Below are positions 9,090-32,883 of a DNA stretch of 52,330 nucleotides, in pieces. Within the stretch, counting starts at the first letter, position 1; each line of letters starts with the position of its first letter. This DNA comes from Verrucomicrobiota bacterium (GTDB lineage: Bacteria > Verrucomicrobiota > Verrucomicrobiia > Verrucomicrobiales > DEV007), in contig JAHDFZ010000003.1 in assembly GCA_020627905.1 (NCBI GenBank), positions 1 through 52,330 on the forward strand, read 5' to 3'. The notes beneath the pieces were generated by a model that was not told where the DNA came from, did not search any database, and saw nothing but the letters and a program-made list of their open reading frames with translations. Position numbers and translations under genes: made by a program.

Positions 9090-9152
9090 TAACTTGTGTC
9101 CTGCGCCTCCAGGCCTACCTTCCTCCCGCCCTTTGATGCGGGGCTGCCGGGT

Positions 9153-13242: not shown

Positions 13243-14436
13243 ATGAACACAGAATCGACTCTCTCTCATCCTCGCATCGCTATCGTCGGACTCGGCTTTG
13301 GCGCGGAGTTCCTCCCCATCTACCAGCGCCATCCAAATGCAGACGTCACTGCCATCTGCCAGCGCAACGAAGAATCCCTGAAAGAAATCGGTGATAAGTT
13401 CGGCATCGAAAAGCGCTACACTTCCTACGAGGAGCTGCTGACTGATCCGGACATCGATGCCGTCCACATCAATACTCCCATTCCAAACCATGGGGAGCAG
13501 AGCATCGCAGCCCTGAAAGCTGGTAAGCACGTCGCCTGCACGGTCCCGATGGCAACCACTGAGGAGGAATGCAAGCAGATCGTCGAACTCTGCGCTGAGA
13601 CAGGTCTGAAATACATGATGATGGAGACCGTGCTTTACGCCCGTGAATTCCTTTTCATGAAGGATCTCTACGATCGTGGCGAGCTGGGTAAGCTGCAGTT
13701 CCTCAAAGCCAGCCACCAGCAGGATATGGACGGCTGGCCAGGTTACTGGCCCGGCCTCCCGCCGATGCACTATGCCACACACTGCGTAGGCCCCGTCCTC
13801 GGCATGGGACGTCACGAGGCAGAATACGTAAGCTGTTTCCCCAGTGGGACGATCCGTGAGGAGATGCATGCATGCTATAATTCGCCTTTCGCGGTCGAGA
13901 CGACTCATATCCGCTTCAAGGACAGCGACCTGAGCGCCCAGGTCTACCGATCTCTCTTCGATATCGCACGACAGTATCGCGAGAGCATCGAAGTCTATGG
14001 ATCAGAAAAATCTGTCGAGTGGCCGCTGATCGAGCACGAGCCTCTCGTCCTGCACACGGCGAAAAAGCCTGAGCCGGAAATCCCCGAAAAGGTGACGAGT
14101 CCGGATTTTGCTGATCGCCTACCTGAGGAGATTGCACCCTTCACCACCGGCGGGGTTTACTCAAACGACGAAGGAGAGGAGCACCTCAGCTTTACACAGG
14201 GCGCCGGCCACGGAGGCTCTCACCCGCATCTCGTCCACGAGTTTGTTCAGCTTCTACGTGGAGAAGGAGATGGATATCCTAACGCTGTGCAGAGCGCTAA
14301 CATTACACTTACCGGCATTCTTTCCCACGAATCTGCACTGAAAGGCGGCGAAAGAATTCCGCTTCCCAATTGGACCTTTATGCCAGAAGACGCAGCGCTC
14401 GAAACGCAGGAAGACGAGTCGACCGTTCTTGCGTGA
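13243..14436 (+). CDS. Gfo/Idh/MocA family oxidoreductase
   Basis: RIAIVGLGFGAEFLPIYQRHPNADVTAICQR (Rossmann), DAVHINTPIPNHGEQSIAALKAGKHVACTVPMATT. Confidence 0.95.
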   Translation: MNTESTLSHPRIAIVGLGFGAEFLPIYQRHPNADVTAICQRNEESLKEIGDKFGIEKRYTSYEELLTDPDIDAVHINTPIPNHGEQSIAALKAGKHVACTVPMATTEEECKQIVELCAETGLKYMMMETVLYAREFLFMKDLYDRGELGKLQFLKASHQQDMDGWPGYWPGLPPMHYATHCVGPVLGMGRHEAEYVSCFPSGTIREEMHACYNSPFAVETTHIRFKDSDLSAQVYRSLFDIARQYRESIEVYGSEKSVEWPLIEHEPLVLHTAKKPEPEIPEKVTSPDFADRLPEEIAPFTTGGVYSNDEGEEHLSFTQGAGHGGSHPHLVHEFVQLLRGEGDGYPNAVQSANITLTGILSHESALKGGERIPLPNWTFMPEDAALETQEDESTVLA

Positions 14437-14483
14437 ACAGATCGGAATCTGATAAAATCCAAAACCCTCTCCAAATCATAAGG

Positions 14484-17400: not shown

Positions 17401-19175
17401 ATGACCCACAGATTCCGTTCCTCGCATGGCCCGCGATCGAAACCCTGGTAGCTGAGCAACCCGCCAAAGCACTGGATCAGCTGCTTCCTGCCTCGCAATG
17501 GCCTCAGCTGACCGACTGGATCGTGCGCCGCGCTGCTGCTTTTGAGCAGGGACGCACCGAGCTTATGACCTCGCTGAGCAAGGCTCCAAACTCACGCGCA
17601 TTCAACGAACGCGTCGCCTTTCTCGTAGCTGCCCTGGAGGCGAGCCCTCCTATCGAGCAGCCTAAGGGGTGGGAGCAGGTAAAGGCCACTGCGGAAAAAT
17701 TCGCCGCCCCCGGCACACCCCACCGGCCCGCCTACGATCGACTGGCCACCATGGTGGGCGATGAGGATTCATTCCCAGTGTTCCGCACCATCGCTCTCGA
17801 CCAAAAGGCAAAACCCCAGGAGCGTGCTGATGCGATCCGGTTGCTCGCCAGAGGCAGTGACCCCCAACTGCAGATCATCGCTGCGAAAGCGGTTGAGAAA
17901 CCACAAGCCGATATTCGGAATGCAGCCCTCGATGCTCTGAAAGCCTTCCCCAATGAGAAGACCGCTCAGGTGCTTGTCGATCGGCTGGAGTCCTTCGACT
18001 CAAACCAGCGGAACGTGGCCATCAGCCTTCTCTCACGAACACCCGAGATGGCCCTGGTATTGCTCAAAGCAGTCGATGCAAAGTCACTACCAGCGTCACT
18101 TGTTTCTCCTGTGTTGCTGGACCAGTTTGAGAGATTCGGAAACGAATCCATCGACACTCTCATTGAGGCTAACTGGGCACGCGGTGGCGGCTCGGTAGAC
18201 ATCGCGGCACTCGGCGCTTCGATCAAAAACTGGGAGAAAAAGCTCAACTCACGCGTGATGGCAAAAGCAAATGCATCACGCGGACGCGAAGTGTATAAGA
18301 TGACTTGTGGCACCTGCCATGTGCTTTTCGATGAGGGGATCCACCTTGGCCCGAACCTCACCGGCTCGAACCGGGCTGATCTGCATTACATTCTCGAGAA
18401 TGTCCTCGCACCAAACGCCGTCATCGGAAAAGACTATCAACTCAACATCTTCAGTATGGCAGACGGCCAGGTCCTCAGCGGAATGGTGCAGTCCGAGACC
18501 GGCGAGTTCTTCAACCTAGCCATGCCTGGTGGGGCTACTGTCGACGTGAAGAAGGCAGATGTGAAAGACCGCCAAATCATGGAGCAGTCACTGATGCCTG
18601 CTGGGCTGTTCGACGCTCTTCCCCTTGAGCAAGTGGCCGATCTTGTGAAATACCTAGCCTCGCCCGGCCAGGTTCCCACTGAAGCGGAACTAACAGCTAA
18701 AAAGGCGGCACAAGCGCGGACCATCCCGCCAGCAGCACCTGGAGTCATCCGGATCGAGGCTGAATCACTGGCAGAGGCCTACCCCGCCGCTCAGGGACAG
18801 GGAGCTGTGCGGAGCCAGGGAATGAAGAACTTCCCCGATGCCTGGTCCGGGGACGGCCAGTTGTTCTGGAGAGGAGCGAAGGCTGGCAACATGTATACCG
18901 TGAAACTTGACGCTGTCACCGCCGGAAACTACAACCTCACTCTGTTCCCAACGACAGCGCGTGACTATGCAACGATCAAGGTCGCCATCAATGGTCAGCT
19001 GCAGACTGCCGACCTCTATAACGCCGACGTGAAACAAGGTGAGCCCCTGACCTTCTCGGGGATCAACGTCAGCCCCACCGAACCCCTCCAGATCGATATC
19101 CATATCACTGGTAAAAATGAGAAGTCTGTCGGCTTCCAGGTAGGTCTTGATCGCTTTGAGCTGGAGAAGCTCTAA
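14484..19175 (+). CDS. Multidomain secreted protein: FG-GAP/VCBS repeats + PVC-type dehydrogenase (beta-propeller) + HEAT-like repeats + cytochrome c haem site + C-terminal CBM-like domain
   Basis: Signal peptide from MNRKTILSGLAALAGISSAAHA; GIGDIDGDGNDDVIYG / DVNGDGLLDFV / DVDGDGDSDLI repeats; GFSVDLIAAEPTVTQPIAMCFDARGRLWVIEGHTYP propeller; haem motif CGTCH at 18306-18320; C-terminal RIEAESLAEAYPAAQGQG... CBM-like. Confidence 0.9.
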   Translation: MNRKTILSGLAALAGISSAAHASPSMADDWEKLRLEDAFLSEHAGIGDIDGDGNDDVIYGHKWYAGPDFKESFTFYEGREYDPRQGYSKHFMSFAQDVNNDGAPDVFAYGFPGKEVRLFINPGKEQARGGANWEVHQIVDQLTHETPFFTDLIAGGLPEIIGGANTEYGYYEAGEDPTKPWQWVAVSPAKRAHPVFGHGIGIGDVNGDGLLDFVERDFWYEQPKTTGQGLWKERKWAPSRYGGGGAQILVDDVDGDGDSDLITSLNGHGYGLAWFEQTEPNVFVAHQILGEKSTDNPYGVVFSQLHALELTDIDADGRNDFVIGKRHLGHNGKDRGGLQDPVVYWFRNTEKDDSIEFVPYLIDEESGFGVATSVGDLNQDGTVDVVAASKFGLSIFLQNTDAKFVPPTPWVEPLKEQTEYGSQLTPEEAVANYTVPEGFSVDLIAAEPTVTQPIAMCFDARGRLWVIEGHTYPVRDEGGWDQGKDRVIILEDTDGDGTFETKKTFLENVNLASGIEVGFGGVYIGAAPYLLFFADADGDDQPDGEPEVLLDGWGYQDTHETLNAFTWGPDGWLYGCHGVFTHSKVGKPGTAEEDREKINAGVWRYHPTKHEFEVWAYGTSNPWGVDFNEYGDWFVSACVIPHFHHMTQGGRHVRQAGQHFNPYIFDNIKTIADHEHYAGDKRALWGARDSKASGQDKNFTNLVGGGHAHCGLAIYDAPEFPAEYRGRAFFHNLHGHRIVSENLKRNGSSYIATHAPDFARANDHNQVGVTVIQGPDGALYSSDWQDSQTCHHRDVEIWDRSNGRLFRIRYGDAKTTNTSLMEMDLAELVETVAHPNTFHANQARRLLQEGAASGRFGAEDLKTALVAFEDKQSTTALRLRAFWAMHATGVLDDAELVARLDDADPYIRAWSLQFLGETETALSATALAAVEELAKTERNLVTRRYIASLLQRLPVEQRWTVAKNLINKRFDQYDPQIPFLAWPAIETLVAEQPAKALDQLLPASQWPQLTDWIVRRAAAFEQGRTELMTSLSKAPNSRAFNERVAFLVAALEASPPIEQPKGWEQVKATAEKFAAPGTPHRPAYDRLATMVGDEDSFPVFRTIALDQKAKPQERADAIRLLARGSDPQLQIIAAKAVEKPQADIRNAALDALKAFPNEKTAQVLVDRLESFDSNQRNVAISLLSRTPEMALVLLKAVDAKSLPASLVSPVLLDQFERFGNESIDTLIEANWARGGGSVDIAALGASIKNWEKKLNSRVMAKANASRGREVYKMTCGTCHVLFDEGIHLGPNLTGSNRADLHYILENVLAPNAVIGKDYQLNIFSMADGQVLSGMVQSETGEFFNLAMPGGATVDVKKADVKDRQIMEQSLMPAGLFDALPLEQVADLVKYLASPGQVPTEAELTAKKAAQARTIPPAAPGVIRIEAESLAEAYPAAQGQGAVRSQGMKNFPDAWSGDGQLFWRGAKAGNMYTVKLDAVTAGNYNLTLFPTTARDYATIKVAINGQLQTADLYNADVKQGEPLTFSGINVSPTEPLQIDIHITGKNEKSVGFQVGLDRFELEKL

Positions 19176-19190
19176 GCCGCAGGGATTACG

Positions 19191-19222
19191 GAGTAGCCGT
19201 GAAGATGCGTTCACGGCTACTC
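19191..19222 (+). terminator. Strong hairpin, probable terminator/attenuator between the dehydrogenase and the first sulfatase
   Basis: GAGTAGCCGTGAA-GATGCG-TTCACGGCTACTC: perfect 13-bp stem, followed by a pyrimidine-rich tail. Confidence 0.6.
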
Positions 19223-19275
19223 GTCTCTCTGCCCTGTGATCTCATTTCGAGCATCACCTCCATTCAAAAAAAACC

Positions 19276-20841
19276 ATGATGAAATCGCTGCTCTCGATCA
19301 TTGCATCCCTGATTTTCCTCTGCTTAAACAGTATTCAGGCATCTGACCAACCTAACATCATCTTTATCTTTACCGATGATCACTGCAAGCAGGCCCTAAG
19401 CGCCTACGATGACTCGCGGATGATCACTCCGCATCTCGATCGCATTGCCGAGGAAGGAATGCGTTTCGATAAATGCTATGTCACGAACTCGATCTGTGGG
19501 CCCAGCCGCGCTGTCATCCAAACAGGCAAGCACAGTCACTTGAATGGCTTCGTGCGCAACGGAAATTCCTTTGATGGGTCGCAGGTCACCTTTCCCAAGC
19601 TGCTTCGTGCCAATGGATATCAAACGGCTGTCATCGGGAAATGGCATCTCAAGTCGACACCCGTTGGGTTCGATCACTATGATGTCCTCATCGGTCAGGG
19701 ACCCTACTACAACCCGCAGATGCGGACTGGGAAACTCGACGGGGAACAAAGGGTGGAAGAAAACACAGGCTACACCACCGACCTCATCACGCAGAAATCA
19801 CTAAGCTGGCTCAAAGAAGCCCGTGATTCTGAGAAGCCGTTTATGCTGATGTATCAGCACAAAGCGCCTCACCGCAACTGGATGCCCGGCCCGAAGTATC
19901 TCACCTGGCTGGATGATCAGGAAATCGCTCTCCCCGACACCTTCTTCGACGATTGGTCAGGCAAAGCAACCCCTGCCTCGCGTCAGACGATGACGGTTGC
20001 GAAGCACATGAATCAGCATGACCTCAAACTCCAGTTGTCGAAACGTCATGTTCAGTTCACGCCCGAGCAGCGCGCTGCCTGGAATGCGGCCTACGAGCCG
20101 AAGAACCGCGCCTTTCTGGAAAAGCGCGCTTCCATGACGGATCGCGAGATCGCACTCTGGCAATATCAACGCTATGTGAAAGACTATCTCCGCTGCGTCA
20201 AATCGGTTGATGATGGGGTCGGCGAAATCCTCGATTTCCTCGACGAAAGCGGGCTGGCGGCGAATACGGTCGTCATCTACTCGAGCGACCAGGGCTGGTT
20301 TCTCGGTGAGCACGGCTGGTATGACAAACGCTGGATGTATGAGGAATCGCTGGTCACACCACTTCTCGTGAGATGGCCCGGCGTCACGAAGCCCGGCTCC
20401 ATCAACGATCAGCATATCGTCTCCAACCTTGATTTCGCCCAGACCTTTCTCGGAATCGCCGGGGTGGAAGCAGACCCTTCCATGCAGGGCGCCTCTCTTG
20501 TCCCCTTATTGAAAGGCCAATCTCCTGAGGGGTGGCGCGAGTCCTTTTACTACCATTTCTATGAGTTCCCGGCGGTGCACTCCGTTGCGCGGCATCATGG
20601 CGTGACGAACGGCCAGCATAAGCTCATTCAATATTACGGCCCCAGCCACGTGAAAGGAGAGCAATACGATGAGTGGGAACTCTTCGACCTCCAGAAAGAC
20701 CCTGACGAGCTTACTAATGTCTACGACGCCCCAGCCTACAACGAGATACAGCAGGCCATGCATGCCGAGCTCGACAAGCTGATGGAGAACTATCAAGTGC
20801 CTCCGCTCGATCGAGGGCCTGAAGTCCCCTCTTTCCCATAA
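19276..20841 (+). CDS. Sulfatase (family S1), N-acetylglucosamine-6-sulfatase-like by eye
   Basis: Signal peptide; NIIFIFTDDHCKQALSAYDDSRMITPHLDRIA; formylglycine motif CGPSRAVIQTGKHSH; GKWHL. Confidence 0.95.
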   Translation: MMKSLLSIIASLIFLCLNSIQASDQPNIIFIFTDDHCKQALSAYDDSRMITPHLDRIAEEGMRFDKCYVTNSICGPSRAVIQTGKHSHLNGFVRNGNSFDGSQVTFPKLLRANGYQTAVIGKWHLKSTPVGFDHYDVLIGQGPYYNPQMRTGKLDGEQRVEENTGYTTDLITQKSLSWLKEARDSEKPFMLMYQHKAPHRNWMPGPKYLTWLDDQEIALPDTFFDDWSGKATPASRQTMTVAKHMNQHDLKLQLSKRHVQFTPEQRAAWNAAYEPKNRAFLEKRASMTDREIALWQYQRYVKDYLRCVKSVDDGVGEILDFLDESGLAANTVVIYSSDQGWFLGEHGWYDKRWMYEESLVTPLLVRWPGVTKPGSINDQHIVSNLDFAQTFLGIAGVEADPSMQGASLVPLLKGQSPEGWRESFYYHFYEFPAVHSVARHHGVTNGQHKLIQYYGPSHVKGEQYDEWELFDLQKDPDELTNVYDAPAYNEIQQAMHAELDKLMENYQVPPLDRGPEVPSFP

Positions 20842-20859
20842 AACTAACTTTCCAAAACG

Positions 20860-22185
20860 ATGAGAACTCCAAAAATAATTCTTTTTCTTATCTCTATCTT
20901 CACCTCAACCACACTCTTTAGCCAAGCAGAAGCGCCGAATTTCGTCGTCATATTCGTAGACGACCTCGGATATGGTGATCTTGGCTGCTATGGCTCAAAA
21001 AATATCAACACACCCAATCTCGATGCCTTTGCAGCAGAGGGCACACGCTTCACGGATTTTTATGCCCAAACAGTTTGCGGCCCCTCGCGCTCTGCGCTTC
21101 TTACCGGTCGATACCCAATTCGGAGTGGCGGATGGTCGATGCCAGCAAGCGAGATCACAATCGCTGAAGTCTTAAAAGGTGCCGGCTATCAAACCGCCTG
21201 TATCGGCAAGTGGGACACCTCGAACCGTGAGCCCATCCTGGCACGGATGCCGAACCAGCAGGGCTTCGATTACTTTTTTGGAGGTGTAGGCGGCAATGAT
21301 GGCGGCCGAGTCAAGCTTGCTTTCGAGAACGAAACGAAGCTTCCACCCCACACCGATATGCAGCACCTTACTTATGAGACAAATCGAGCTGCAATCGACT
21401 GGTTAAAATCCCGGAACGAAAAGCCGTTCTTTCTCTTTCTTTGTCATTACATGGTCCACGCAAAAGTTGATGCTTCGGCAACATTTCGCCATCGCTCTGC
21501 GGGCGGCTTATATGGAGACGCCGTAGAAGAACTCGATCACGAAACCGGGCGATTCCTCCATGAAATCGACCGCATGGGCTTAAAAGAAAATACGATTGTC
21601 ATTTTTACCTCAGATAACGGAACCTGGAGTAACCACACTCAGGCACTTACAAAAGCGCACGGCGGCGAAGTTGCCTGGGGTTCGTCTGGCAACCTACGAG
21701 GAGCAAAAGGTTCGACATACGAGGGTGGGCCGCGGGTTCCGTGTATCGTTCGCTGGCCTGGCAAAACTCCATCAGGAACCTCAAGCAACGCTCTCTTTTC
21801 TACGCTCGATTTCTTACCGACATTCGCTGCACTCGCTGGGGTCAACATACCCGAGGATCGGATCATAGATGGAGTGAATCAGAGTGAGCTGCTTCGCGGA
21901 GAAGACCCGGCTGGAAGGCGCGAAGCCTTCCACTATTTCGTCAGCCATCAGCTACATGGAATTCGCGATCGTCAATGGAAATTATTGCTCCCCGACCGCA
22001 CAGGACATAAAAGCTATGATAAAGATCTGGGTGAAACGAAACAACCTGAGCTTTACAACCTTGCTACTGATCCATCCGAAAAAAACAACCTGGCCGCAAA
22101 GCATCCAGAGATCGTTGAGCGGCTCACGTCCCTCGCCAACAAGCTGCCACTTCCGGAAAATCGACCGCCTGTCGATATCAAATGA
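20860..22185 (+). CDS. Sulfatase (family S1)
   Basis: NFVVIFVDDLGYGDLGCYGSKNINTPNLDAFAAEGTRFTDFY...CGPSRSALLTGRYP; ends AENRPPVDIK-type, signal peptide. Confidence 0.95.
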   Translation: MRTPKIILFLISIFTSTTLFSQAEAPNFVVIFVDDLGYGDLGCYGSKNINTPNLDAFAAEGTRFTDFYAQTVCGPSRSALLTGRYPIRSGGWSMPASEITIAEVLKGAGYQTACIGKWDTSNREPILARMPNQQGFDYFFGGVGGNDGGRVKLAFENETKLPPHTDMQHLTYETNRAAIDWLKSRNEKPFFLFLCHYMVHAKVDASATFRHRSAGGLYGDAVEELDHETGRFLHEIDRMGLKENTIVIFTSDNGTWSNHTQALTKAHGGEVAWGSSGNLRGAKGSTYEGGPRVPCIVRWPGKTPSGTSSNALFSTLDFLPTFAALAGVNIPEDRIIDGVNQSELLRGEDPAGRREAFHYFVSHQLHGIRDRQWKLLLPDRTGHKSYDKDLGETKQPELYNLATDPSEKNNLAAKHPEIVERLTSLANKLPLPENRPPVDIK

Positions 22186-22220
22186 CTCTCTATCATAGAA
22201 CTCGAACGCCTACCCTCGAT

Positions 22221-23762
22221 ATGATCCGAAATCTTTCTGTAGCGCTAGCCTTATGCCTTCTATGCAATCAACCCACATTCAGCAAAAACCAACCTAACAT
22301 CGTCATCATCTTCACAGATGACTTAGGCTACGGCGATCTTGGTTGCTATGGAGCGACTCATGTGGAAACACCGAACATCGACAAACTTGCAGCACAGGGA
22401 AGACGCTTCACAGATGCTCATTCAGCCTCTGCCACCTGCACTCCCTCGCGTTATGCCCTACTTACCGGTCAATATCCGATCCGCGAGGACCTCTTTGCAC
22501 CCGTTTTCCTCAAAAGCCCCCTCATCGTCGACCCCAAACGCACGACGATTGCCGACCTTGCACAAGAGCAGGGCTACTCCACCGCCTGCATCGGCAAATG
22601 GCATCTCGGCTGGGGAACAGAAGCACCAGTAGACTGGAATAAGCCCCTCCGGCCAGGGCCCAATCAGCTGGGGTTTGATTACTACTACGGAGTGCCAGTG
22701 GTCAATAGCCACCCACCGTTTGTTTATGTGGAAAACGACCAGGTAGTCGGATATGCCGCCGACGATCCTTTCGTCTACGGTAAGTCATCAGTCACAAAAA
22801 GGGGCTGGGATGAAAAAATGGCAGGCAAGAGCATTGGTGGAGCAGAAGCAGCCCACCGCCTCTACGATGACGAAGCCGTAGGAGAAGTGCTCACGGCCAA
22901 GGCGACGGACTGGATCCGCAAACAAACTGAGCAGGAGACGCCCTTCCTCCTCTACTTCGCCACCACGCACATCCATCACCCCTTCACCCCGGCTAAGCGC
23001 TTCCAGAATACCAGTGAGGCCGGAATCTATGGGGACTTCATTCACGAACTCGATTGGATCGTTGGTGAAGTTGTCGATACGCTGGAAGAAAGCGGCGCGG
23101 CAGAGGAGACCATGATCATCCTTACCAGCGATAACGGTGGAATGCTCAATCGCGGAGGGCAGACTGCTCGTAAGCGAGGACACAAGAAGAACGGTGAACT
23201 CCTCGGGTTTAAATTTGATGTCTGGGAGGGCGGCCACCGTGTCCCCTGGATCGTAAAATGGCCCGGCAAAGTGCCTGCAGGTTCAGAGTCCGACGCTCTT
23301 ATTTGTAATGTGGACCTGATGGCTACCTTCGCGAGCCTCTGGGATCGCCCGCTCGGCGAGGGCGAAGCAGAAGACTCCTTTGATCTTCTCCCTGCCTTCA
23401 CCGGCTCATCCGATGTCGAGGTGCGGGATCATCTCCTTTACGCGCCTGCTAAACCAACCCACGTCGGGATCCGATCAGGAGGCTGGGTCTACATCCCCAC
23501 GCGTGGTCATGGTGGGTTTTCAGCTAATCGAGTAGGAAGCCACGGTTTCGGGGGCATCGCTGCGCACCCCTTCACAGGTCATGTCCATAGCGATGTAGAA
23601 GACGGAAAGTTCAAAGCAAACGCCCCTATGGAACAACTTTACAACCTCAGGACAGACCCCTTTCAAAAGCAGAACATCATCCGGGAAAACCCCGAAAAAG
23701 TTAAGGAGCTAAAAGCACTCCTCAAGCGCGTCATAGAAACTCCCACAGCACCCCATTTGTAG
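22221..23762 (+). CDS. Sulfatase (family S1), arylsulfatase-A-like
   Basis: NIVIIFTDDLGYGDLGCYGATHVETPNIDKLAAQGRRFTDAH...CTPSRYALLTGQYP, GKWHLGW; ATG at 22221 precedes a signal peptide. Confidence 0.95.
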   Translation: MIRNLSVALALCLLCNQPTFSKNQPNIVIIFTDDLGYGDLGCYGATHVETPNIDKLAAQGRRFTDAHSASATCTPSRYALLTGQYPIREDLFAPVFLKSPLIVDPKRTTIADLAQEQGYSTACIGKWHLGWGTEAPVDWNKPLRPGPNQLGFDYYYGVPVVNSHPPFVYVENDQVVGYAADDPFVYGKSSVTKRGWDEKMAGKSIGGAEAAHRLYDDEAVGEVLTAKATDWIRKQTEQETPFLLYFATTHIHHPFTPAKRFQNTSEAGIYGDFIHELDWIVGEVVDTLEESGAAEETMIILTSDNGGMLNRGGQTARKRGHKKNGELLGFKFDVWEGGHRVPWIVKWPGKVPAGSESDALICNVDLMATFASLWDRPLGEGEAEDSFDLLPAFTGSSDVEVRDHLLYAPAKPTHVGIRSGGWVYIPTRGHGGFSANRVGSHGFGGIAAHPFTGHVHSDVEDGKFKANAPMEQLYNLRTDPFQKQNIIRENPEKVKELKALLKRVIETPTAPHL

Positions 23763-23829: not shown

Positions 23830-25194
23830 ATGAAGCGTAAGAAAGGAGCAGGACCCGGTGTATTTCTTTTCGGTTTCGGACTCATCGTCGTTCTTGTGCT
23901 CGTTCTCTGGGCCAACGAAAATCGCTTCGACTACCACAAAGCGGCGAAGTCGCGTGCGCAGATAATCGATGTCACTGCGCTAGGCGCTGGTCAGCAATTC
24001 GCTTTCACTGGGTCTCTCCCTGATGAGCTCACCCTCAGCGGTGACTACCTTTCAGCAATCACAGGCTACCTTGTCGCCTACCGCAAAGCCGAGATTTACT
24101 GCTGGGATCGCGACGAGGATGACGAGGGCCATGTCACCTGGCGTAAACAATGGATGAACTCGGTCCAGAGCAATTCCCGCAATTCAGGGATTGTTCAGAC
24201 ATTACGCAGCGGCACCCTCCTCGCAGACGCCTACACACTTAGCGGACTCCCCATCGACCGGCAGGATCTTCAGTTCGTCGATAAAAAACAGCCTATCCAA
24301 CCCGGCCAGTGGCCTCGCACACCGGCTGCTGAGCAGCTCGCTATAGAGGGAGAATACCTCATGAGCTATGCCGACCGCTCGGATAACATCGGTAACGAGC
24401 GTCTTTCCTGGCGAGGGATTCCACTGGCATCCACGCTGACTTACTTCGGAGACTACAGCGGCATGCAGGCCATTGCAGACCGCACCGAGCAGCGAGATGG
24501 CTTCATCGCCTCGCTCATCGGTGACAGCGGCATCCTCCACCATCTCGTCTCCGGGGAGCGCGAGACCGCCCTCGCCACCATGAAGAGCCATCTCGCCTTT
24601 CGCACTCGGCTCACCCGTGGCATCGGCTCAGCTGCCATGGTGCTGGGTTTCCTCCTGCTGCTTGCGCCGATCAGCAAACTCCTCTCCTCGATCCCGCTGA
24701 TCGGCCCGCTCGCCAACGCCGGAATCTTTCTTCTAGCGCTCGCTCTCGGGCTTGGGCTGAGTGCCATCGTCATTGTCACGGGCTTCTTTTTCTCCCAACC
24801 ATGGCTCCTGGTCATTGTCCTTGGCGGGTTGATCGCCCTGCTCGTCGTCGGTTTCCGACGACGCAAGCAACAGGCCACGTTACAAAAAGCGGTCTCCGCC
24901 GAACAGGCTGAAATGGAGGATGAAGAGCAACCGTCGCTCGCTGATCAACGAGCCGACGACATCAAGACTCTGCGTGGGAATCCCTACGCTGCTCCCATGG
25001 CTTCGACAGAAGACACCAGCTCTCCGAATGACCCTGAAAAGACGCTTAAGCACCTCATCCGCCTGGCCCTCGCAGACGAGCAGATCGACCGCAAAGAGAT
25101 GAAAGAGATCCGTGCCGCGGCAAAAGACGCCGGCATCAGACAGAAGGACTTCGGGCGGTTTATGCGCGAAGTGCTGAAGGCGGAAGCAGCCTGA
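23830..25194 (+). CDS. TMEM43-like membrane protein with C-terminal TerB-like helical region
   Basis: N-terminal TM helix, LSGDYLSAITGYLVAYRKAEIYCWDRDEDDEG pattern, four hydrophobic segments, C-terminal KTLKHLIRLALADEQIDRKEMKEIRAAAKDAGI (TerB-like by eye). Confidence 0.7.
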   Translation: MKRKKGAGPGVFLFGFGLIVVLVLVLWANENRFDYHKAAKSRAQIIDVTALGAGQQFAFTGSLPDELTLSGDYLSAITGYLVAYRKAEIYCWDRDEDDEGHVTWRKQWMNSVQSNSRNSGIVQTLRSGTLLADAYTLSGLPIDRQDLQFVDKKQPIQPGQWPRTPAAEQLAIEGEYLMSYADRSDNIGNERLSWRGIPLASTLTYFGDYSGMQAIADRTEQRDGFIASLIGDSGILHHLVSGERETALATMKSHLAFRTRLTRGIGSAAMVLGFLLLLAPISKLLSSIPLIGPLANAGIFLLALALGLGLSAIVIVTGFFFSQPWLLVIVLGGLIALLVVGFRRRKQQATLQKAVSAEQAEMEDEEQPSLADQRADDIKTLRGNPYAAPMASTEDTSSPNDPEKTLKHLIRLALADEQIDRKEMKEIRAAAKDAGIRQKDFGRFMREVLKAEAA

Positions 25195-25307
25195 AGCAGT
25201 CTTCTCCGAATTTCTCACGCCTCGCTCCAATTTTTCCCACCTTTTGTAATCGCCCTGAAGCGTTGATGTGGCTATAAAGAGCACGTCATCGAAATCCTGA
25301 GGGGGAA

Positions 25308-25955
25308 ATGCTAGAACTACTCACCGAATCCATCGCCTCTTACAACCTGCCGCTCACCGTGCTGCTGGGCCTCGTGATTCTCTATTGGGTGATCTCAGCG
25401 ATCGGCGTGCTGGATCTGGAATTTGACTTTGATCTGGATGGCGATTTCTCGGTGGAGGCAGGTTCCGCTCTTGGAGCTCTGGGCGGCCTCCTTCGTTTCG
25501 TCAACGCAGATCGGGTTCCAACGATGATTGTCGCCACCGTCTTTGTCCTGTTTCTCTGGGGTATCGGCATGGCGCTCAGCCTCATTTTCAATGAAACTGG
25601 CTCCTATCTAACAGCAGGCATCCTCTTTCTGCCCAACTTCATCGTCAGCCTCGTCTGCACAAAGCTAGTGACCCTGCCCCTGAAGGGATTATTCACGAAA
25701 TTCCGACTGGAAGGCGAAATCCAGGAGCCGGTCGTCGGTCGCTCAGGCATCGTCAAGTCCGCACAGGTCGATGAAAGCTACGGCCAGGTAGAGGTCATCA
25801 CAGACTCCGCCCCTCTGCTGCTCAATGCACGAGTAACAGCAGGCTCCGGCCTCAGCCTCGCCAAAGGCACTCAGGTTCTCATTTTTGATCACGACCCAGA
25901 GCGTGATCTTTTCCTCGTCCGTGAAGACGATTCTAACTCCCACCCTACTACCTAA
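25308..25955 (+). CDS. YqiJ/OB-fold-type membrane protein (NfeD-like)
   Basis: TM helices plus C-terminal beta-rich region EPVVGRSGIVKSAQVDESYGQVEVITDSAPLLLNARVTAGSGLSLAKGTQVLIFDHD; directly upstream of a flotillin. Confidence 0.7.
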   Translation: MLELLTESIASYNLPLTVLLGLVILYWVISAIGVLDLEFDFDLDGDFSVEAGSALGALGGLLRFVNADRVPTMIVATVFVLFLWGIGMALSLIFNETGSYLTAGILFLPNFIVSLVCTKLVTLPLKGLFTKFRLEGEIQEPVVGRSGIVKSAQVDESYGQVEVITDSAPLLLNARVTAGSGLSLAKGTQVLIFDHDPERDLFLVREDDSNSHPTT

Positions 25956-25965
25956 GACCCAACTC

Positions 25966-27924
25966 ATGCATATCAGTCCCTACCTATCGCAACTCCCTAT
26001 CGCCGACTCGCTCGGCTGGCTTGGCACAGTTTTCACCCTTGCCGCCATCGGACTGATCGTCCTGATGGTTATTACGATCGTCAACTGCTGGAAACGCGTC
26101 GAGCAAGGACAGGCACTGATCATCAACAAACCGAGCGGGACGCGCGTGAGTTTCCGCGGTGCGATCGTCATCCCAGTGATTCATAAGCACGAATATATGG
26201 ACATCTCGCTCAAGCGTATCGAGGTGGACCGCACGGGCACCAACGGACTGATCTGTAAGGACAACATGCGCGCCGATATCAAGGTGGCGTTCTTCGTTCG
26301 CGTAAACAACGTGGCCGATGACTGCCTGCGTGTCGCCCAATCGATCGGTTGTGATCGTGCTTCCTCTCCCCGTGAGATCGAAGGTCTCTTCGATGCCAAA
26401 TTTTCCGAAGCTCTCAAGACGGTTGGTAAACGCTTCGACTTCACAGAGCTCTACGAAGAGCGCGACACCTTCCGCGATGAGATCCTCAAGGTGATCGGCA
26501 CCGACCTCAACGGTTTCGTCCTCGATGACTGTGCCATCGACCACCTGGAGCAGACACCTCTGGAGTCCCTCGACCCTAACAATATCTTAGACTCCGAGGG
26601 TATTAAGAAAATCACCGACATCACCGCGCGCGAAGCGGCTCTCGCTAACCAGATCGAGCGCGAGAAGCAGAAAACCATCAAGCAGCAGGATGTAGAAGCT
26701 CAGGAAGCGATTCTCGAGCTGGAGCGTCAGCTGGCAGAAACCGAAGCTCGCCAGTCCCGTGAGGTGAAAGTCGTAGCTGTCCGTGAAAAAGCAGAAGCAG
26801 ACAAGGTAGCTGAGGAAGAGCGCTACAAGTCAGAGCAGGCTCGCATCAAAACAGAGGAGGAACTGGCGATCGCCGAGGAGAACAAACAGCGCCAGATCCT
26901 CATCGCTCTGCGCAATAAGGAGCGCTCCGACGTCGTCGAAATCGAGCGCGTAAAGCGCGAGCAGGAGATGGAATCCATCGAGCGCGAACGCCTGACAGCC
27001 CTCAAGGACATCGAGCGCGAGAAGGCGGTCGAAATCGAGCGCAAAGCGATTCAGGAAGTGATCAAAGAACGCGTCGCTGTTGAGAAAAACGTCGTGATCG
27101 AGCAGGAGAAGATCAAAGACACGGAAGCCTTCGCCGCTGCTGAGCGTGCCAAGGAAGTTGCCGTGACCAATGCCGCTGAGCAGGCGGAAGCAGATCTCAT
27201 CCTCCGCACGAAGGAAGCGGAAGCCTCCAAGACCGCTGCCGAGCTGAAGGCAGAGGAGGAATACTTCCAGACCTTACGGAATGCCGAGGCGTCCAAGAAA
27301 GCAGCCGAGCTGCGCGCAGAGGAGGTCATCGTCGAGGCGGAAGCTCGCGAAGCAGCTGCCGAGAAAGATGCCAAGGCGAAAATCGTCCTTGCTGACGGGG
27401 TGACCAGAGAAGCGGCGGCCGAAGGCCTCGGTGAAGCCGACGTCATCCGTGCTCAGGCGGTCGCAGAGGCCGAGGGCATCAAAGATAAGGCGGCAGCCAT
27501 GAAGCTCTTCAACGAAGCTGGTCAGGATCACGAGGAGTTCAAGCTCACGCTCGATAAGGAGAAGCAGGTGGAGCTGGCAGAGATCGACGTGCATCGTCAG
27601 GTGGCAGCGGAACAGGCGCGCGTGGTATCGGAAGCGCTCAAGTCGGCTAACATTGACATCGTGGGCGGTGAGACGGAGTTCTTTGATCGCATCACGAATG
27701 CCGTAACACGAGGCAAAGCTCTGGAGCGCACTGTCAGTAACAGCGACACCCTGGAACAGGTGCGGGAGGCTCTGCTGGCAGACGGCGGCAGCGGCACTCA
27801 AAATCTGCTGGAGCGTCTCGGCCTGGAGTCTGAGGACCTGAAAAATCTCAGCGCAGCCGCCCTCATGGCCAAACTAAGCGGTGGTGGAGATCTCCTGAAG
27901 AAGCTCGAAGGTAGCGAGTCCTAA
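25966..27924 (+). CDS. Flotillin (YqiK/SPFH family)
   Basis: GQALIINKPSGTRVSFRGAIVIPVIHKHEYMDISLKRIEVDRTGTNGLICKDNMRADIKVAFFVRV SPFH core, then a long charged EA-rich coiled coil. Confidence 0.95.
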   Translation: MHISPYLSQLPIADSLGWLGTVFTLAAIGLIVLMVITIVNCWKRVEQGQALIINKPSGTRVSFRGAIVIPVIHKHEYMDISLKRIEVDRTGTNGLICKDNMRADIKVAFFVRVNNVADDCLRVAQSIGCDRASSPREIEGLFDAKFSEALKTVGKRFDFTELYEERDTFRDEILKVIGTDLNGFVLDDCAIDHLEQTPLESLDPNNILDSEGIKKITDITAREAALANQIEREKQKTIKQQDVEAQEAILELERQLAETEARQSREVKVVAVREKAEADKVAEEERYKSEQARIKTEEELAIAEENKQRQILIALRNKERSDVVEIERVKREQEMESIERERLTALKDIEREKAVEIERKAIQEVIKERVAVEKNVVIEQEKIKDTEAFAAAERAKEVAVTNAAEQAEADLILRTKEAEASKTAAELKAEEEYFQTLRNAEASKKAAELRAEEVIVEAEAREAAAEKDAKAKIVLADGVTREAAAEGLGEADVIRAQAVAEAEGIKDKAAAMKLFNEAGQDHEEFKLTLDKEKQVELAEIDVHRQVAAEQARVVSEALKSANIDIVGGETEFFDRITNAVTRGKALERTVSNSDTLEQVREALLADGGSGTQNLLERLGLESEDLKNLSAAALMAKLSGGGDLLKKLEGSES

Positions 27925-27960
27925 GCGCTCCCGAGACCAGACCCACACTCCTCCATCCCT

Positions 27961-30900
27961 ATGTCTGAGGCACCCACTCTTGAGGGCGGCACTTATGAGG
28001 TCCTGCGCAAGCGCCTGTCTGATCAGGCAGGCGATCTGCGCAGCCGCGTGCAGAAGCTCAACGAGTCACGGCAGGAAACCTTCGGCTCTGTGGAGCCTGA
28101 GCTCATCGCGACCGACCGCGTCTCTACCCCACACCGCTGCACGGCGCGGGATATGGTATCGATCGGTGATGAGTGCTTCCTCTTCGGCTACAACATTCAG
28201 TTCGGCCTCAAAACGACGACGGAGGTAGCCGATGTCTTCTCCACCTATCGCTGGGATGGTGAGCAGAAGCACTTCCTGCCAGTAGAGCTGAAGCTCAAGG
28301 AGGCCAGCCGCTTCGATACCGACTTTCGCGAGCTGTTCCGCTTCTACAAGGATGCGGTCTTCGTAAAATTCCTCGTCATCGGGCCGCACCTCTACACAGC
28401 TTTTCGAATCGGGCGTGAGGTCACAGACCTCAAGGTATTTAAATTTCTTCTACTCGGTTCGGGTGAGCTGGAATATCTCGGAAATCGATTCGATCACGAA
28501 TACGTCTTCCCTGAGCAGCAGAGCTTCACCTGGGAGCGAGCGCATCGGGAAATGCAGCGCTCTGGGACAAACCCTCACATTTCCATCGATGACCGAGTTT
28601 TCGTGGAAACTGTCGGCGGCGACCTCACGATCAAGATCGAGGACAATACGGCAGACGGACTGGGTATTTATCGAGAGGACGTCACGGATCGGGACCAGTC
28701 GCTCGACGATGCTGAGATTTTCTACGCCTTCGTCGGCAGCCTTATTCTGCTGAAGATCCTTCCCTATCGGGAGGAGGATTATCGCTACCTCGTCTTCAAC
28801 GAAAAGACCAAACAGGTCACCCGTTGCGACGCCATCGACCATTCCTGCATTCTCCTGCCGGAGGATCACGGGATCATCTTCGCGAATGGCTATTTGCTGG
28901 ACACCGGTGACAGCAAAATCTTCGACACCAATCTCGATGGACTGGTATTCGAGCGCCGCGTCGCCAGCAGCAATGGCGAGGATTTCCTTTACGCGTTTTA
29001 CCACCGGCTCAGCGGGCACTACGTGCTCCTGCCCTACAACCTAATCACCCAGCAGGTGGATACGCCGATCATCTGTAACGGATTCTCTCTGTTCGAGGAT
29101 GGGACGCTGCTCTACTTCCGCTCAGAGGATGAACCTGCCAAGCACCACGCACTCCAGGTTTGGAACACTCCCTATCAGACACAGGAGGCCGTAGCCACAA
29201 CGGAGGAAGACCCCAGCTTTCTCGCCAAACTGGGCAACGCGGAGATCGTCCGCGCGCTGGCTGAGTGCCAGGAAATCCTCACCCTTACTCGTAAAGACGA
29301 CACCTTCGGCGACCTCTACATCTCTCTGGTGCGCCAATCGGGAGACGTGCTCGACCGATACTTCTGGATCGCAGACGAGAAAGCGCACAACCTCGCCGAA
29401 CCCCTGTCGGGAATCCAGGAAGCAGCGCAGTCTGCCCTCAATGAATTCGACAAAGTCACCCAGCTTCGCCAACGAGCGACGGAGGAACTCGCCCGACAGG
29501 AGGAGGCCAGCAAGGCTGTCATCTCGAAGGCTTCCTACGCCTCCTTCGACAGCATCGAGCAGTTCGTAGAACTCCTCAACGAATTGCGCACCTCTCGGGG
29601 GCAGGTGATCACGGCCCGGGAGCTCCGCTACATCGATACCGCGACACTTGACGCACTGGAGAAAGAACTGGAGGAATCGACCGACAGGATCTCGGGCAAG
29701 TGCGTCGACTTCCTGCTGCAGGAGCAGGCCCTGCAGCCATACGAAGAAAAGATTGCTGCCCTACAGGAGCAGATCGATTCCCTGAAAAAAGTTCAGGAGG
29801 CGAAGGCTCTCGAAGAAGAAATCGCAGCAGTGGGCACCGAGCTGGAGATGCTCATCGATGTCGTGAGCAACCTCAAGATTGAGGACGCTACAGAGACCAC
29901 CCGTATCATCGATGCGATCTCCGCTCTTTACGCTCAGATCAACCAATCACGAGCTGCTGTTAAGAACCGTCGTGAGGCACTGGCGCAGACAGAAGGAGCG
30001 GCTCAGTTCAGCGCTCAGCTCAAGCTGCTTCAGCAGTCCGTCGCCAGCTATCTGGATCTCATTGATTCACCCGAGGCAGCCGACGAATATCTGACGAAGG
30101 CGATGATCCAGCTGGAAGAGCTGGAGGGGCAGTTCGGCGATGTGTCCGACTTCCAGGATGAAATTGCTGATCGGCGTGACGAAATCTATTCCGCCTTCGA
30201 AGGCCGCAAACAGGCGCTCATCGAAGATCGCAACCGCCGGGTCGCCAATCTTACCAAATCCGCAGATCGCCTATTCACCGGCATCACCCATCGTCTGGAA
30301 AGCTTCGCCACCATCGAGGAAATCAATGGCTATCTGGCTGGTGATCTCATGGTGGAAAAGGTCCGAAACCTGGTGACCAACCTGGAGGAACTAGGTGACT
30401 CTACGAAAGCAGCTGACGTCAAAACCCGGCTGAAAACCGTCGGCGAGGATGCCATCCGTCAACTGAAGGATCGGAACGAACTCTACACGGATGGTGGAAA
30501 CGTCATTAAGCTAGGAAACCATGCCTTCACCGTCAATGAGCAGGAGCTGCAGCTCTCCATCATTCCACGGGACGGTCAGATGGCATTCCACTTGGGAGGG
30601 ACTGATTATTTCGAAACGATCGAAGCGGAGTCATTTGGGCAGTTTCGCGACCTCTGGGAGCAGCAGTATATCTCTGAAAGCCCTGACGTTTACCGATGCG
30701 AATACCTTGCCTACCTCTTTTACGAGCACGAGCGAGAGCAACCAGGAGATCAAACGATACCCCTTCTGGAGCGGGTCCAGGCATTCATGTCTCCACGTTA
30801 TGGCGAGGGTTACACGAAGGGAGTGCACGACAAGGATGCCGTGAGCATCCTTGAGACCTTTTTCCCGACTCTCGCAGCTGCGGATCTGCTTAGATTCGGT

Positions 30901-32883
30901 GCGGCGGATCGAGCCCTCGCGATCGTTTCCTTTCTCGATGCACAGTCTTCTCAGGAAGCGCAAGATCTGGCTCTGAAAGCTCGTGCCTCAGGTCTGGTAA
31001 GGTCGAAAACTGATGACCAATCCTCTGCTTCTCCCTATGAGCGCGAAGCCCTCAGCCTCATCGATTCTTTCTTGTCGCAACAAGCTGCCACCCGATTGTT
31101 TGATCATGCCAGCTCAGAGCAGGCTGCTACCTATTTAGTGGCTGAACTTGAGCGAGGCTCTTTCCCGGACGCAACCGGCGAAAGCTCTGAAGGGTGCAGT
31201 CTCAGCCTGACCGGCAGCCAGGCGCTTCACGACTTTCAAAGCTTTCTCACCAGCAAAAGGCTGAAAACCGCCCTCAAGGAAACAATCGACAGAACCGACT
31301 CCCGGCTTTTCCGTTTTCAGATCATTCTCGACAGTCTCTGTCAGGCCCTGTCATTCGATGCCACCGACTCGACCCTTCTGGAGGCAGCAGCTCACTACCT
31401 CCTCAGCATCGAGTCGGGGAAATCGCGGATGCTCGAAGTCGAAGTGCAAAGCGCCATCAAGCCGATGCTTGGATCGCATAGTCGCATCAGCCAGGAGGAC
31501 AGCGCTCTATCCTTTAACCTGCCGGAGTATTGCCAACGACTGCACGACTTCGCCTCTGTCACCGCACCGCGCTACGAGGCTTTCCACATCGAGCGCCATC
31601 GGCTGATCGAGGAAAAGCGCCGAGAGTTAAAGCTGCACGAATTCGAGCCGAAGGTCATGTCCGCCTTCGTTCGCAACCGTCTACTCAACGAGGTTTTCCT
31701 TCCGCTAATCGGTGACAATCTAGCGAAGCAGCTGGGAACAGCCGGCGATCAGTCGCGGACAGATCGGATGGGCATGCTGCTCCTGATCTCCCCTCCCGGC
31801 TACGGGAAAACCACTCTCATGGAATACGTAGGGAACCGCCTGGGGATGACTTTTGTGAAAGTCAACGGACCCGCCATCGGGCACGCCGTCACATCTCTCG
31901 ATCCCGGAGAAGCTCCTAACATGAGCGCTAGGGAAGAAATGGAGAAGCTCAACTTCTCTCTCGAAATGGGTGACAACATCCTGCTCTATCTCGATGACAT
32001 CCAGCATTGTAATCCGGAGTTCCTCCAGAAATTCATCTCTCTCTGCGATGCGCAGCGAAAGATCGAGGGTGTCTATCAGGGAGAAGCGCGAACCTATGAT
32101 CTGCGGGGCAAGCGCGTAGCAGTCGTCATGGCGGGTAACCCCTACACCGAGGCGGGTGGCAAATTTCAAATCCCTGACATGCTGGCCAACCGCGCCGACA
32201 CCTACAACCTGGGCGATATGATTGGCGGGCATAAAGAGGCCTTCGAAGCCTCCTACATTGAAAACTCTCTCACCTCGAACCAGACCCTTTCACGTCTCGC
32301 TGCCAACTCCCAGAAGGACGTCTATACCCTGATGGCAATGGCTGAGGACGGGACAGGCGATACCGGGGAACTGGAGGGCAACTACTCCCCAGAGGAAGTC
32401 GCCGATTGCGTGACAGTCCTGAAAAAGCTCTTCCGCGTGCGGGATGCCATCTCACGCGTGAACCAGGAATACATTCACTCAGCAGCACAGGCGGATGAAT
32501 ATCGGACCGAGCCAGCCTTTAAGCTGCAGGGATCCTATCGGAACATGAATCGGATCGCCGAGAAGGTGCTGCCTCTGATGACCGATGAGGAAGTGGATGA
32601 GCTCATCATGGATCACTATCAGAATGAGAGCCAGACCCTGGCCGCTGGAGCCGAAGCCAACCTGCTCAAGTTCCGCGAGATCCTCGGGGTGCTTAGCACC
32701 GAAGAGAACGAGCGCTGGAGCGAGATCAAAACCCTGTTCGCCCGAAATCAGCTGATGGCAGGTGGTGAAGATGATCCGGTTAGTCGTGTCGTCTCCGTTC
32801 TCGCAGGATTAAACGAGGCCTTGGGAGGGATCAAAGAAGAGGTTCGCAAAGCAGCCAATTCTACGATGGATCGCGAGGGATAG
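27961..32883 (+). CDS. Giant (1640 aa) DUF3686/'DNA repair ATPase'-type AAA protein
   Basis: N-terminal DUF3686-like region, central coiled coil, C-terminal AAA: Walker A SPPGYGKTT (~31790-31816), Walker B ILLYLDDIQ (~31978-32004), VVMAGNPY. Confidence 0.85.
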   Translation: MSEAPTLEGGTYEVLRKRLSDQAGDLRSRVQKLNESRQETFGSVEPELIATDRVSTPHRCTARDMVSIGDECFLFGYNIQFGLKTTTEVADVFSTYRWDGEQKHFLPVELKLKEASRFDTDFRELFRFYKDAVFVKFLVIGPHLYTAFRIGREVTDLKVFKFLLLGSGELEYLGNRFDHEYVFPEQQSFTWERAHREMQRSGTNPHISIDDRVFVETVGGDLTIKIEDNTADGLGIYREDVTDRDQSLDDAEIFYAFVGSLILLKILPYREEDYRYLVFNEKTKQVTRCDAIDHSCILLPEDHGIIFANGYLLDTGDSKIFDTNLDGLVFERRVASSNGEDFLYAFYHRLSGHYVLLPYNLITQQVDTPIICNGFSLFEDGTLLYFRSEDEPAKHHALQVWNTPYQTQEAVATTEEDPSFLAKLGNAEIVRALAECQEILTLTRKDDTFGDLYISLVRQSGDVLDRYFWIADEKAHNLAEPLSGIQEAAQSALNEFDKVTQLRQRATEELARQEEASKAVISKASYASFDSIEQFVELLNELRTSRGQVITARELRYIDTATLDALEKELEESTDRISGKCVDFLLQEQALQPYEEKIAALQEQIDSLKKVQEAKALEEEIAAVGTELEMLIDVVSNLKIEDATETTRIIDAISALYAQINQSRAAVKNRREALAQTEGAAQFSAQLKLLQQSVASYLDLIDSPEAADEYLTKAMIQLEELEGQFGDVSDFQDEIADRRDEIYSAFEGRKQALIEDRNRRVANLTKSADRLFTGITHRLESFATIEEINGYLAGDLMVEKVRNLVTNLEELGDSTKAADVKTRLKTVGEDAIRQLKDRNELYTDGGNVIKLGNHAFTVNEQELQLSIIPRDGQMAFHLGGTDYFETIEAESFGQFRDLWEQQYISESPDVYRCEYLAYLFYEHEREQPGDQTIPLLERVQAFMSPRYGEGYTKGVHDKDAVSILETFFPTLAAADLLRFGAADRALAIVSFLDAQSSQEAQDLALKARASGLVRSKTDDQSSASPYEREALSLIDSFLSQQAATRLFDHASSEQAATYLVAELERGSFPDATGESSEGCSLSLTGSQALHDFQSFLTSKRLKTALKETIDRTDSRLFRFQIILDSLCQALSFDATDSTLLEAAAHYLLSIESGKSRMLEVEVQSAIKPMLGSHSRISQEDSALSFNLPEYCQRLHDFASVTAPRYEAFHIERHRLIEEKRRELKLHEFEPKVMSAFVRNRLLNEVFLPLIGDNLAKQLGTAGDQSRTDRMGMLLLISPPGYGKTTLMEYVGNRLGMTFVKVNGPAIGHAVTSLDPGEAPNMSAREEMEKLNFSLEMGDNILLYLDDIQHCNPEFLQKFISLCDAQRKIEGVYQGEARTYDLRGKRVAVVMAGNPYTEAGGKFQIPDMLANRADTYNLGDMIGGHKEAFEASYIENSLTSNQTLSRLAANSQKDVYTLMAMAEDGTGDTGELEGNYSPEEVADCVTVLKKLFRVRDAISRVNQEYIHSAAQADEYRTEPAFKLQGSYRNMNRIAEKVLPLMTDEEVDELIMDHYQNESQTLAAGAEANLLKFREILGVLSTEENERWSEIKTLFARNQLMAGGEDDPVSRVVSVLAGLNEALGGIKEEVRKAANSTMDREG

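Follow-up and report, generated by a model that had tools for sequence, protein, structure and literature searches.

What does a giant bacterial ATPase do beside a flotillin, and which of the genes around it belong to the same system? The locus that raises this question lies in a 52,330-nt stretch of DNA (the window) at the start of contig JAHDFZ010000003.1 of a Verrucomicrobiota bacterium (Verrucomicrobiales, DEV007; assembly GCA_020627905.1), whose genome comprises 318 contigs and is 78% complete. Once the coordinates of the open reading frames (ORFs) had been re-derived, four consecutive plus-strand ORFs, encoding a TMEM43-like protein, a YqiJ-like protein, a flotillin and a 1640-aa ATPase with a DUF3686 domain, were found where a first-pass annotation of the sequence had placed them. 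The intergenic gaps measure 113, 10 and 36 nt, the last three genes being as tightly packed as that annotation had said. It took all four for a single system; we find that yqiJ, the flotillin gene and the DUF3686 ATPase gene (hereafter the triad) are a conserved, co-inherited module of which TMEM43 is not a component.

A conserved, co-inherited module of three genes

The triad itself is not new. Operons that combine a band-7/flotillin protein, a YqiJ/YuaF protein and an AAA+ ATPase with a coiled coil and a beta-propeller, some linked to PspA and others standing alone, were described by Ravi et al. 2024 (PMC11237479), who report that short versions with only these three genes are widespread. 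The window has the same adjacent, same-strand yqiJ-like, band-7/flotillin and giant AAA+ genes; it differs from the long version in having neither PspA nor CesT/Tir at the locus (pspA lies on another contig of this genome), neither of which the short version needs. The near-exclusive flotillin pairing, the flotillin C-terminal module and the promoter-defined regulon described below were not found in the related papers, including the passages of Ravi et al.; the regulon literature was not searched.

Among 388 Verrucomicrobiota genomes sampled evenly over the phylum, 34 encode DUF3686 and 354 do not. With membership of the flotillin subfamily set at a profile score over 360 bits, it is present in 33 of the 34 DUF3686 genomes and in none of the 354 others (Fisher p 4e-47), five of which carry only a distant flotillin (96–114 bits) that aligns to about residue 470. 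Because genomes positive for both genes span about 11 families, the co-occurrence is not confined to one clade, and it holds even in three genomes (G129, G086 and G285) where the flotillin gene sits at another locus. Among 57 relatives sampled separately, the flotillin is found in 19 of 20 DUF3686 genomes and in 2 of 37 without DUF3686 (G404 and G410).

Gene order tells the same story. We compared the window with 33 further DUF3686 loci from the phylum sample and 11 from plasmid records; the latter cover Bacteroidota, Pseudomonadota, Deinococcota and Actinomycetota, and phyla other than Verrucomicrobiota are known here from plasmid records alone. Where the contig covers the upstream side of a Verrucomicrobiota locus (31 loci), flotillin and YqiJ genes precede the ATPase gene on the same strand in 27 cases; of the remaining four, three encode the flotillin elsewhere in the genome and one is genome G192. 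Among 14 further loci from the same genus or order, the triad order is kept in all 11 with intact upstream sequence. On the plasmid records, flotillin adjoins DUF3686 at 11 of 11 loci and YqiJ is found at 10 of 11. Searching 72,556 plasmid records returned, as the top 12 flotillin matches (221–525 bits), exactly the 12 records with DUF3686; the next tier scores about 122 bits and is mostly YqiK-type, on Escherichia coli plasmids. The neighbourhood conservation across phyla that the first-pass annotation had proposed as a check therefore holds for yqiJ, flotillin and DUF3686 and fails for TMEM43.

Several loci depart from this layout. In four related genomes (L050, L053, L054 and L058), a small PD-(D/E)XK gene (PF13366) stands between the flotillin and ATPase genes, so the two need not adjoin. 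The DUF3686 genes at L071, L072, L074 and L075 have no neighbouring flotillin; at L074 the gene immediately upstream is Kdo/WaaP-kinase-like, and a homologue of it is present at L075. Separately, about 300 plasmid records, mostly from E. coli and Shigella and predominantly of conjugative type, carry a yqiJ-yqiK type flotillin operon without DUF3686. When recurring neighbours were counted from same-strand clusters outside the core genes, the triad proved to be linked to pspA at 8 Verrucomicrobiota loci, in Hymenobacter and on pQBR103.

Could TMEM43 be the sensor of a four-gene system? Its protein matches Pfam TMEM43 above the cut-off (5.5e-11), whereas the TerB-like tail of the first-pass annotation scores 21.2 bits (3.6e-4), short of the 24.4-bit cut-off, and is suggestive at most. 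The Ter-type stress role that had been hung on this tail is unsupported; no Ter genes are present among the neighbours scanned. TMEM43 adjoins the triad only in the window and in the sister genome G404, whose locus (L222) retains the order TMEM43-yqiJ-flotillin up to the contig end. The two TMEM43 proteins are 75% identical, with nonsynonymous (pN) and synonymous (pS) divergence of 0.16 and 0.74, indicating purifying selection. TMEM43 is missing, however, from all 44 other DUF3686 loci and all 14 further loci from the same genus or order, and other DUF3686 genomes that possess the gene encode it elsewhere, unlinked. Since the linkage is limited to two genomes and a conserved predicted promoter, with its dyad element and -10-like sequence, falls between TMEM43 and yqiJ, TMEM43 lies outside the core, a genuine neighbour in one sublineage; a four-gene system sensing through it is very improbable.

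The three genes also appear to travel together. Gene-tree distances correlate at r = 0.92 between ATPase and flotillin and at 0.87 between ATPase and YqiJ. Both the ATPase and the flotillin trees group Deinococcus with Proteus and Pseudomonas (Pseudomonadota), which suggests that yqiJ-flotillin-ATPase was transferred between phyla as a unit. DUF3686 is patchy within the genus as well as the phylum (11 of 34 genus genomes counting the window genome, 10 of the 33 other members), many of the members without it being more than 90% complete; it is not found in 14 control genomes.

Patchiness, plasmid carriage and trees that suggest transfer between phyla would all suit an anti-phage defence island, as would the observation that phage infection raises PA3728-PA3732 (PMC12041424), which appear to belong to the Pseudomonas aeruginosa counterpart of the triad. 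This last point keeps the phage-response hint of the first-pass annotation alive by analogy. Yet the four window proteins have no meaningful PADLOC match (the best, to Cas12a at 0.0027 across 150 residues, is at chance level), no recurring defence genes were seen nearby, the apparent regulon described below consists of membrane genes, and phage induction of the psp type is a general membrane effect. Nor does DUF3686 occur in any of 50,697 phage records, and none was found in viral contigs; a phage origin of the family was rejected on the same grounds. We regard a defence island as improbable.

The flotillin C-terminal module and the ATPase

The YqiJ-like protein matches Pfam YqiJ_N above the cut-off (7.8e-6), supporting its earlier assignment except for the OB fold, Pfam detecting no YqiJ_OB domain in it. 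Its flotillin partner is read from a natural ATG at 25966, the TTG start of the ORF list (25885) falling within yqiJ. Pfam finds neither Band_7 nor Flot in this 652-aa protein, and we call it a flotillin because it matches NCBIfam FloT (2.3e-6, far under the model's cut-off) and because its family profile recovers E. coli YqiK, which the profile of the SPFH part alone scores at 115 bits. As in other SPFH2/flotillins, the window pair combines an SPFH domain related to YqiK with a YqiJ/NfeD2 partner; the canonical Flot C-terminal domain is missing.

What sets the DUF3686-linked flotillins apart is their C-terminal end. A profile built from residues 485–600 of the window flotillin matches every full-length DUF3686-linked flotillin tested, in five phyla (61 to 203 bits among the matches listed), and detects neither E. 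coli YqiK nor any of the five Verrucomicrobiota flotillins without the ATPase. Some 60 additional residues, with HEEF followed by IDIVGG, are present in the linked proteins at the point where the 553-aa YqiK runs directly into a Flot-type end. Pfam Flot, present in YqiK, is detected in 6 of 6 unlinked flotillins and in 1 of 18 linked ones, that one weakly (E 0.0036). The Flot domain has in effect been exchanged for another module, which we regard as a candidate docking site for the ATPase.

In the ATPase, Pfam identifies DUF3686 (2.3e-179), DUF7902 (2.6e-28) and AAA (8e-6); a relative with 83% identity is found in a Verrucomicrobia metagenome-assembled genome. The Walker A and B motifs that the first-pass annotation had reported intact are kept in 26 homologues from five phyla. 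All motif columns are invariant or nearly so, those invariant in the alignment (A1) being Walker A K59, Walker B D121/D122, sensor-1 N169 and R187, a candidate arginine finger. Judged by these motifs, the protein is equipped as an active AAA+ ATPase would be, and its AAA+ part is the most conserved region, with a mean column identity of 72% against 56% in the N-terminal domain. No protease domain was detected by Pfam.

Structure was less informative. The N-terminal domain has no relative in PDB by sequence search, and its single-sequence model, with a predicted local distance difference test (pLDDT) score of 35, is too poor for use, so the beta-propeller reported by Ravi et al. was not confirmed. 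A two-sequence model of the AAA+ part is of low confidence (pLDDT 43, core about 60–71; Foldseek template modelling (TM) score about 0.26).

These data bear on two other views of the enzyme. One is that it acts as a MoxR-type chaperone for the maturation or insertion of one particular client, flotillin serving just to localise it and no membrane being remodelled. The ATPase and MoxR profiles can be aligned over 115 columns that span Walker A to the sensor-1 region (AGNPYTEAGGKFQIP vs ATQNPVEQEGTYPLP), and the low-confidence model shows a possible beta-hairpin ahead of sensor 1, as in the MoxR-like and RuvB-like clades. Near the P-loop, however, the profile scores higher with FtsH-type and other classical AAA groups than with MoxR, the best PDB sequence matches, around the P-loop, are NVL/Rix7/p97, and no recurring VWA partner gene was seen among the neighbours. 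Pfam AAA_3 (MoxR) is not matched. The placement would thus lie between MoxR-like and classical AAA without settling on either, and a MoxR-type chaperone seems unlikely.

The other view follows the database names ('ATPase involved in DNA repair' in Pfam, 'DNA repair ATPase' in RefSeq) and treats the neighbours as incidental. Beyond the name, it can draw on a weak P-loop similarity to RuvB, which is limited to the generic AAA+ core and to that TM-score on a poor model. The strict association of DUF3686 with membrane proteins in five phyla, a promoter common to membrane genes and the absence of any DNA-binding domain detected by Pfam all run counter to it. Already disfavoured, DNA repair is scarcely credible here, and we consider the label of these very large bacterial proteins misleading.

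A promoter element shared with other membrane genes

Between TMEM43 and yqiJ lies a block that shows conservation with L222 despite near-saturation at synonymous sites. Aligning 28 order-level triad loci yielded a motif with an information of 12.2, against 8.2–9.1 in shuffled sets. Refined to AAW-N11-WTTRTARTSG, it contains an ACAAW...WTTGT dyad and is followed by a -10-like T at position +29. Its 9-base core of the TTRTARTSG type is complete (9/9 positions) at 21 of the 28 loci and at 1 of 31 other loci, and the single match in the window lies in front of the triad. A sigma-54 promoter like the putative one of the P. aeruginosa bac operon was considered and rejected (34 matches in the window against 26.9 expected, none before the triad), and a sigma-70 scan of the window gave chance-level matches.

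Across 30 genomes, the element matches 186 times, compared with 69 for a reversed control. It is also found in genus members without the triad and hence marks a wider gene set. Behind 62 sites retrieved for comparison, nine gene families each turn up in two or more genomes, and within most families the spacing from element to start codon is similar. Pfam identified genes for LemA, PspA, DUF697-SHOCT, a KAP NTPase, an AI-2E-type membrane protein and DUF4126; single cases include an NfeD gene followed by a stomatin-type SPFH gene, a TM2 gene and a response regulator. In the window genome, the element occurs as an exact copy ahead of the triad and also ahead of genes for a TM2 protein, an AI-2E-like protein and a small membrane protein; in degenerate form it lies about 83 nt upstream of that genome's own pspA, a spacing also seen in two relatives.

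A family of small membrane proteins (about 97–114 aa, with NPTAGxxELIPDNIPvxGNLDEA) is encoded 32–34 nt behind the element in five genomes (L256, L282, L291, L304 and L308); the two members scanned have no Pfam match.

By their content, the genes behind the element would make up a membrane-stress-like regulon. Since the element is shared with pspA, lemA and nfeD-stomatin genes, the membrane-stress role that the first-pass annotation had suggested for the locus gains independent support. In Bacillus subtilis, the SigW regulon places FloT/YuaF under joint control with pspA and a second operon of the NfeD-SPFH kind. The parallel is that flotillin, NfeD-SPFH and pspA genes lie behind one element here as well. 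The differences are that SigW recognises a -35/-10 pair, in contrast to a dyad some 48 nt before the predicted start, and that the Verrucomicrobiota set goes beyond that of SigW in including lemA, a KAP NTPase, TM2 and others.

A probable membrane-stress machine and its apparent counterparts

On balance, we consider it probable that YqiJ, flotillin and the DUF3686 protein form a three-protein membrane-stress machine, in which an ATPase for envelope-stress remodelling works on a dedicated flotillin platform. The flotillin would oligomerise on the inner membrane, helped or anchored by the YqiJ/NfeD-type protein, and its C-terminal module, replacing the usual Flot domain, would recruit the giant AAA+ protein, which appears to have no obvious membrane anchor of its own. 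The latter may use its N-terminal domain and coiled coil to bind clients or partners and, upon envelope damage, spend ATP on remodelling, extracting or releasing membrane-associated assemblies such as PspA or membrane proteins. In this lineage, expression of the operon would be turned on jointly with that of pspA, lemA, nfeD-stomatin and other membrane genes, by way of the shared dyad at about -48 from the predicted start; TMEM43 would be a neighbour gained in one sublineage. An ATPase on a flotillin platform, much as the first-pass annotation had pictured it, is the best reading of the locus; it goes beyond the computed conservation, co-occurrence, module exchange, intact ATPase motifs and shared promoter element in inferring docking and remodelling, the kind of stress that induces the operon and a regulator acting at the dyad. 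A model for how the triad could work is HflK/HflC-FtsH, where an AAA+ enzyme is likewise paired with an SPFH assembly at the membrane; it differs in that DUF3686 has no detected protease domain, and the two are not homologous as systems.

Several points weigh against this reading. The sampled genomes are not phylogenetically independent. G192 carries DUF3686 with no detectable flotillin, and in two genomes of the same genus, G404 and G410, the flotillin gene is cut off where its contig stops and DUF3686 is undetected, both genomes being incomplete (52% and 63%). Because the ATPase-linked flotillins form one clade, their C-terminal module could mark common descent instead of a dock. About a third of the genome-wide element matches are expected by chance. 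Finally, deletion of PaFlo3, the flotillin of the P. aeruginosa bac operon, is nearly phenotype-free, with biofilm reduced by 20% and survival of oxidative stress unchanged (PMC13086221).

That operon appears to be the triad's counterpart, PA3728 being likened to the DUF3686 protein by gene type and by its annotation as an ATPase (PMC8190622). It comprises PA3732-PA3728 and one more gene (PMC2587700, PMC10948618), encoding DUF2170/YjfI, PspA, a 23-kDa NfeD-like protein, the 76-kDa SPFH protein PaFlo3 and PA3728. The same gene types occur on pQBR103, where YjfI/DUF2170 and PspA genes lie upstream of YqiJ-like, SPFH and confirmed DUF3686 genes. The genes bacA-F are co-transcribed, through bacD-bacE (PMC10948618); PA3731, the PspA-like protein, is required for biofilm and rises upon osmotic shock (PMC2587700); and PaFlo3 pairs with a short NfeD (PMC13086221). 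Unlike the window triad, the bac operon has a putative sigma-54 site in front. YqiJ-YqiK of E. coli and YuaF-FloT of B. subtilis (PMC2636767) share with the triad the operon of a YqiJ/NfeD2 protein and a flotillin.

A bolder version of the membrane-stress machine, which we offer tentatively and rate a little short of probable, is that this separate flotillin clade replaced the Flot domain with a docking module whose obligate partner is the DUF3686 AAA+ protein, creating a protease-free SPFH-AAA+ machine. In Verrucomicrobiota, that machine would form one branch of a hitherto undescribed membrane-stress regulon (pspA, lemA, nfeD-stomatin, KAP NTPase, TM2 and SHOCT genes) governed through a TTACAAW-N11-WTTGTAATCG dyad, in parallel to the Psp and SigW responses. 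A dedicated flotillin partner and a docking candidate make bacterial flotillin function testable with two proteins, and the shared promoter element is a first handle on how the poorly studied Verrucomicrobiota may sense membrane damage.

Table 1. Coordinates of the triad, its predicted promoter and the neighbouring TMEM43 gene in the window
Feature	Position	Strand	Basis
TMEM43-like membrane protein, weak TerB-like tail, 454 aa; neighbour, not core	23830..25194	+	Pfam TMEM43
Predicted triad promoter (dyad element and -10-like TATAAA)	25226..25278	+	conservation, motif search
Dyad element AAWN11WTTRTARTSG	25229-25252	+	motif alignment
-10-like TATAAA	25273-25278	+	fixed distance from dyad element
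YqiJ-like (NfeD2-type) membrane protein, 215 aa	25308..25955	+	Pfam YqiJ_N, synteny
Flotillin, DUF3686-linked subfamily, 652 aa	25966..27924	+	profile relation to E. coli YqiK
Flotillin C-terminal module, candidate ATPase dock	27418..27765	+	HEEF 27529-27540, IDIVGG 27652-27669
DUF3686-DUF7902-AAA+ ATPase, 1640 aa	27961..32883	+	ORF and Pfam
DUF3686 N-terminal domain of ATPase	28033..29364	+	Pfam 2.3e-179
DUF7902 in ATPase middle region	29725..29976	+	Pfam 2.6e-28
AAA+ module of ATPase	31633..32760	+	motif columns in 26 homologues
Walker A SPPGYGKTT	near 31789-31815	+	kept in 26 homologues, five phyla
Walker B YLDDIQ (YLDDIQH)	near 31987-32004	+	kept in 26 homologues, five phyla
Sensor 1 / arginine finger region of ATPase, AGNPYTE..G..F.IPDMLANRAD	within 31633..32760	+	conserved columns

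Elsewhere in the window, one 749-aa protein (9096-11345) fuses FAN1-type helix-turn-helix and VRR nuclease domains to a DnaQ-like (RNase_T) exonuclease. Two further regions, 14370-23762 and 42950-48837, in which sulfatase genes stand beside genes for large cytochrome-c / DUF7133 / FG-GAP and PSCyt / DUF1552 proteins, are probably polysaccharide-degradation clusters.

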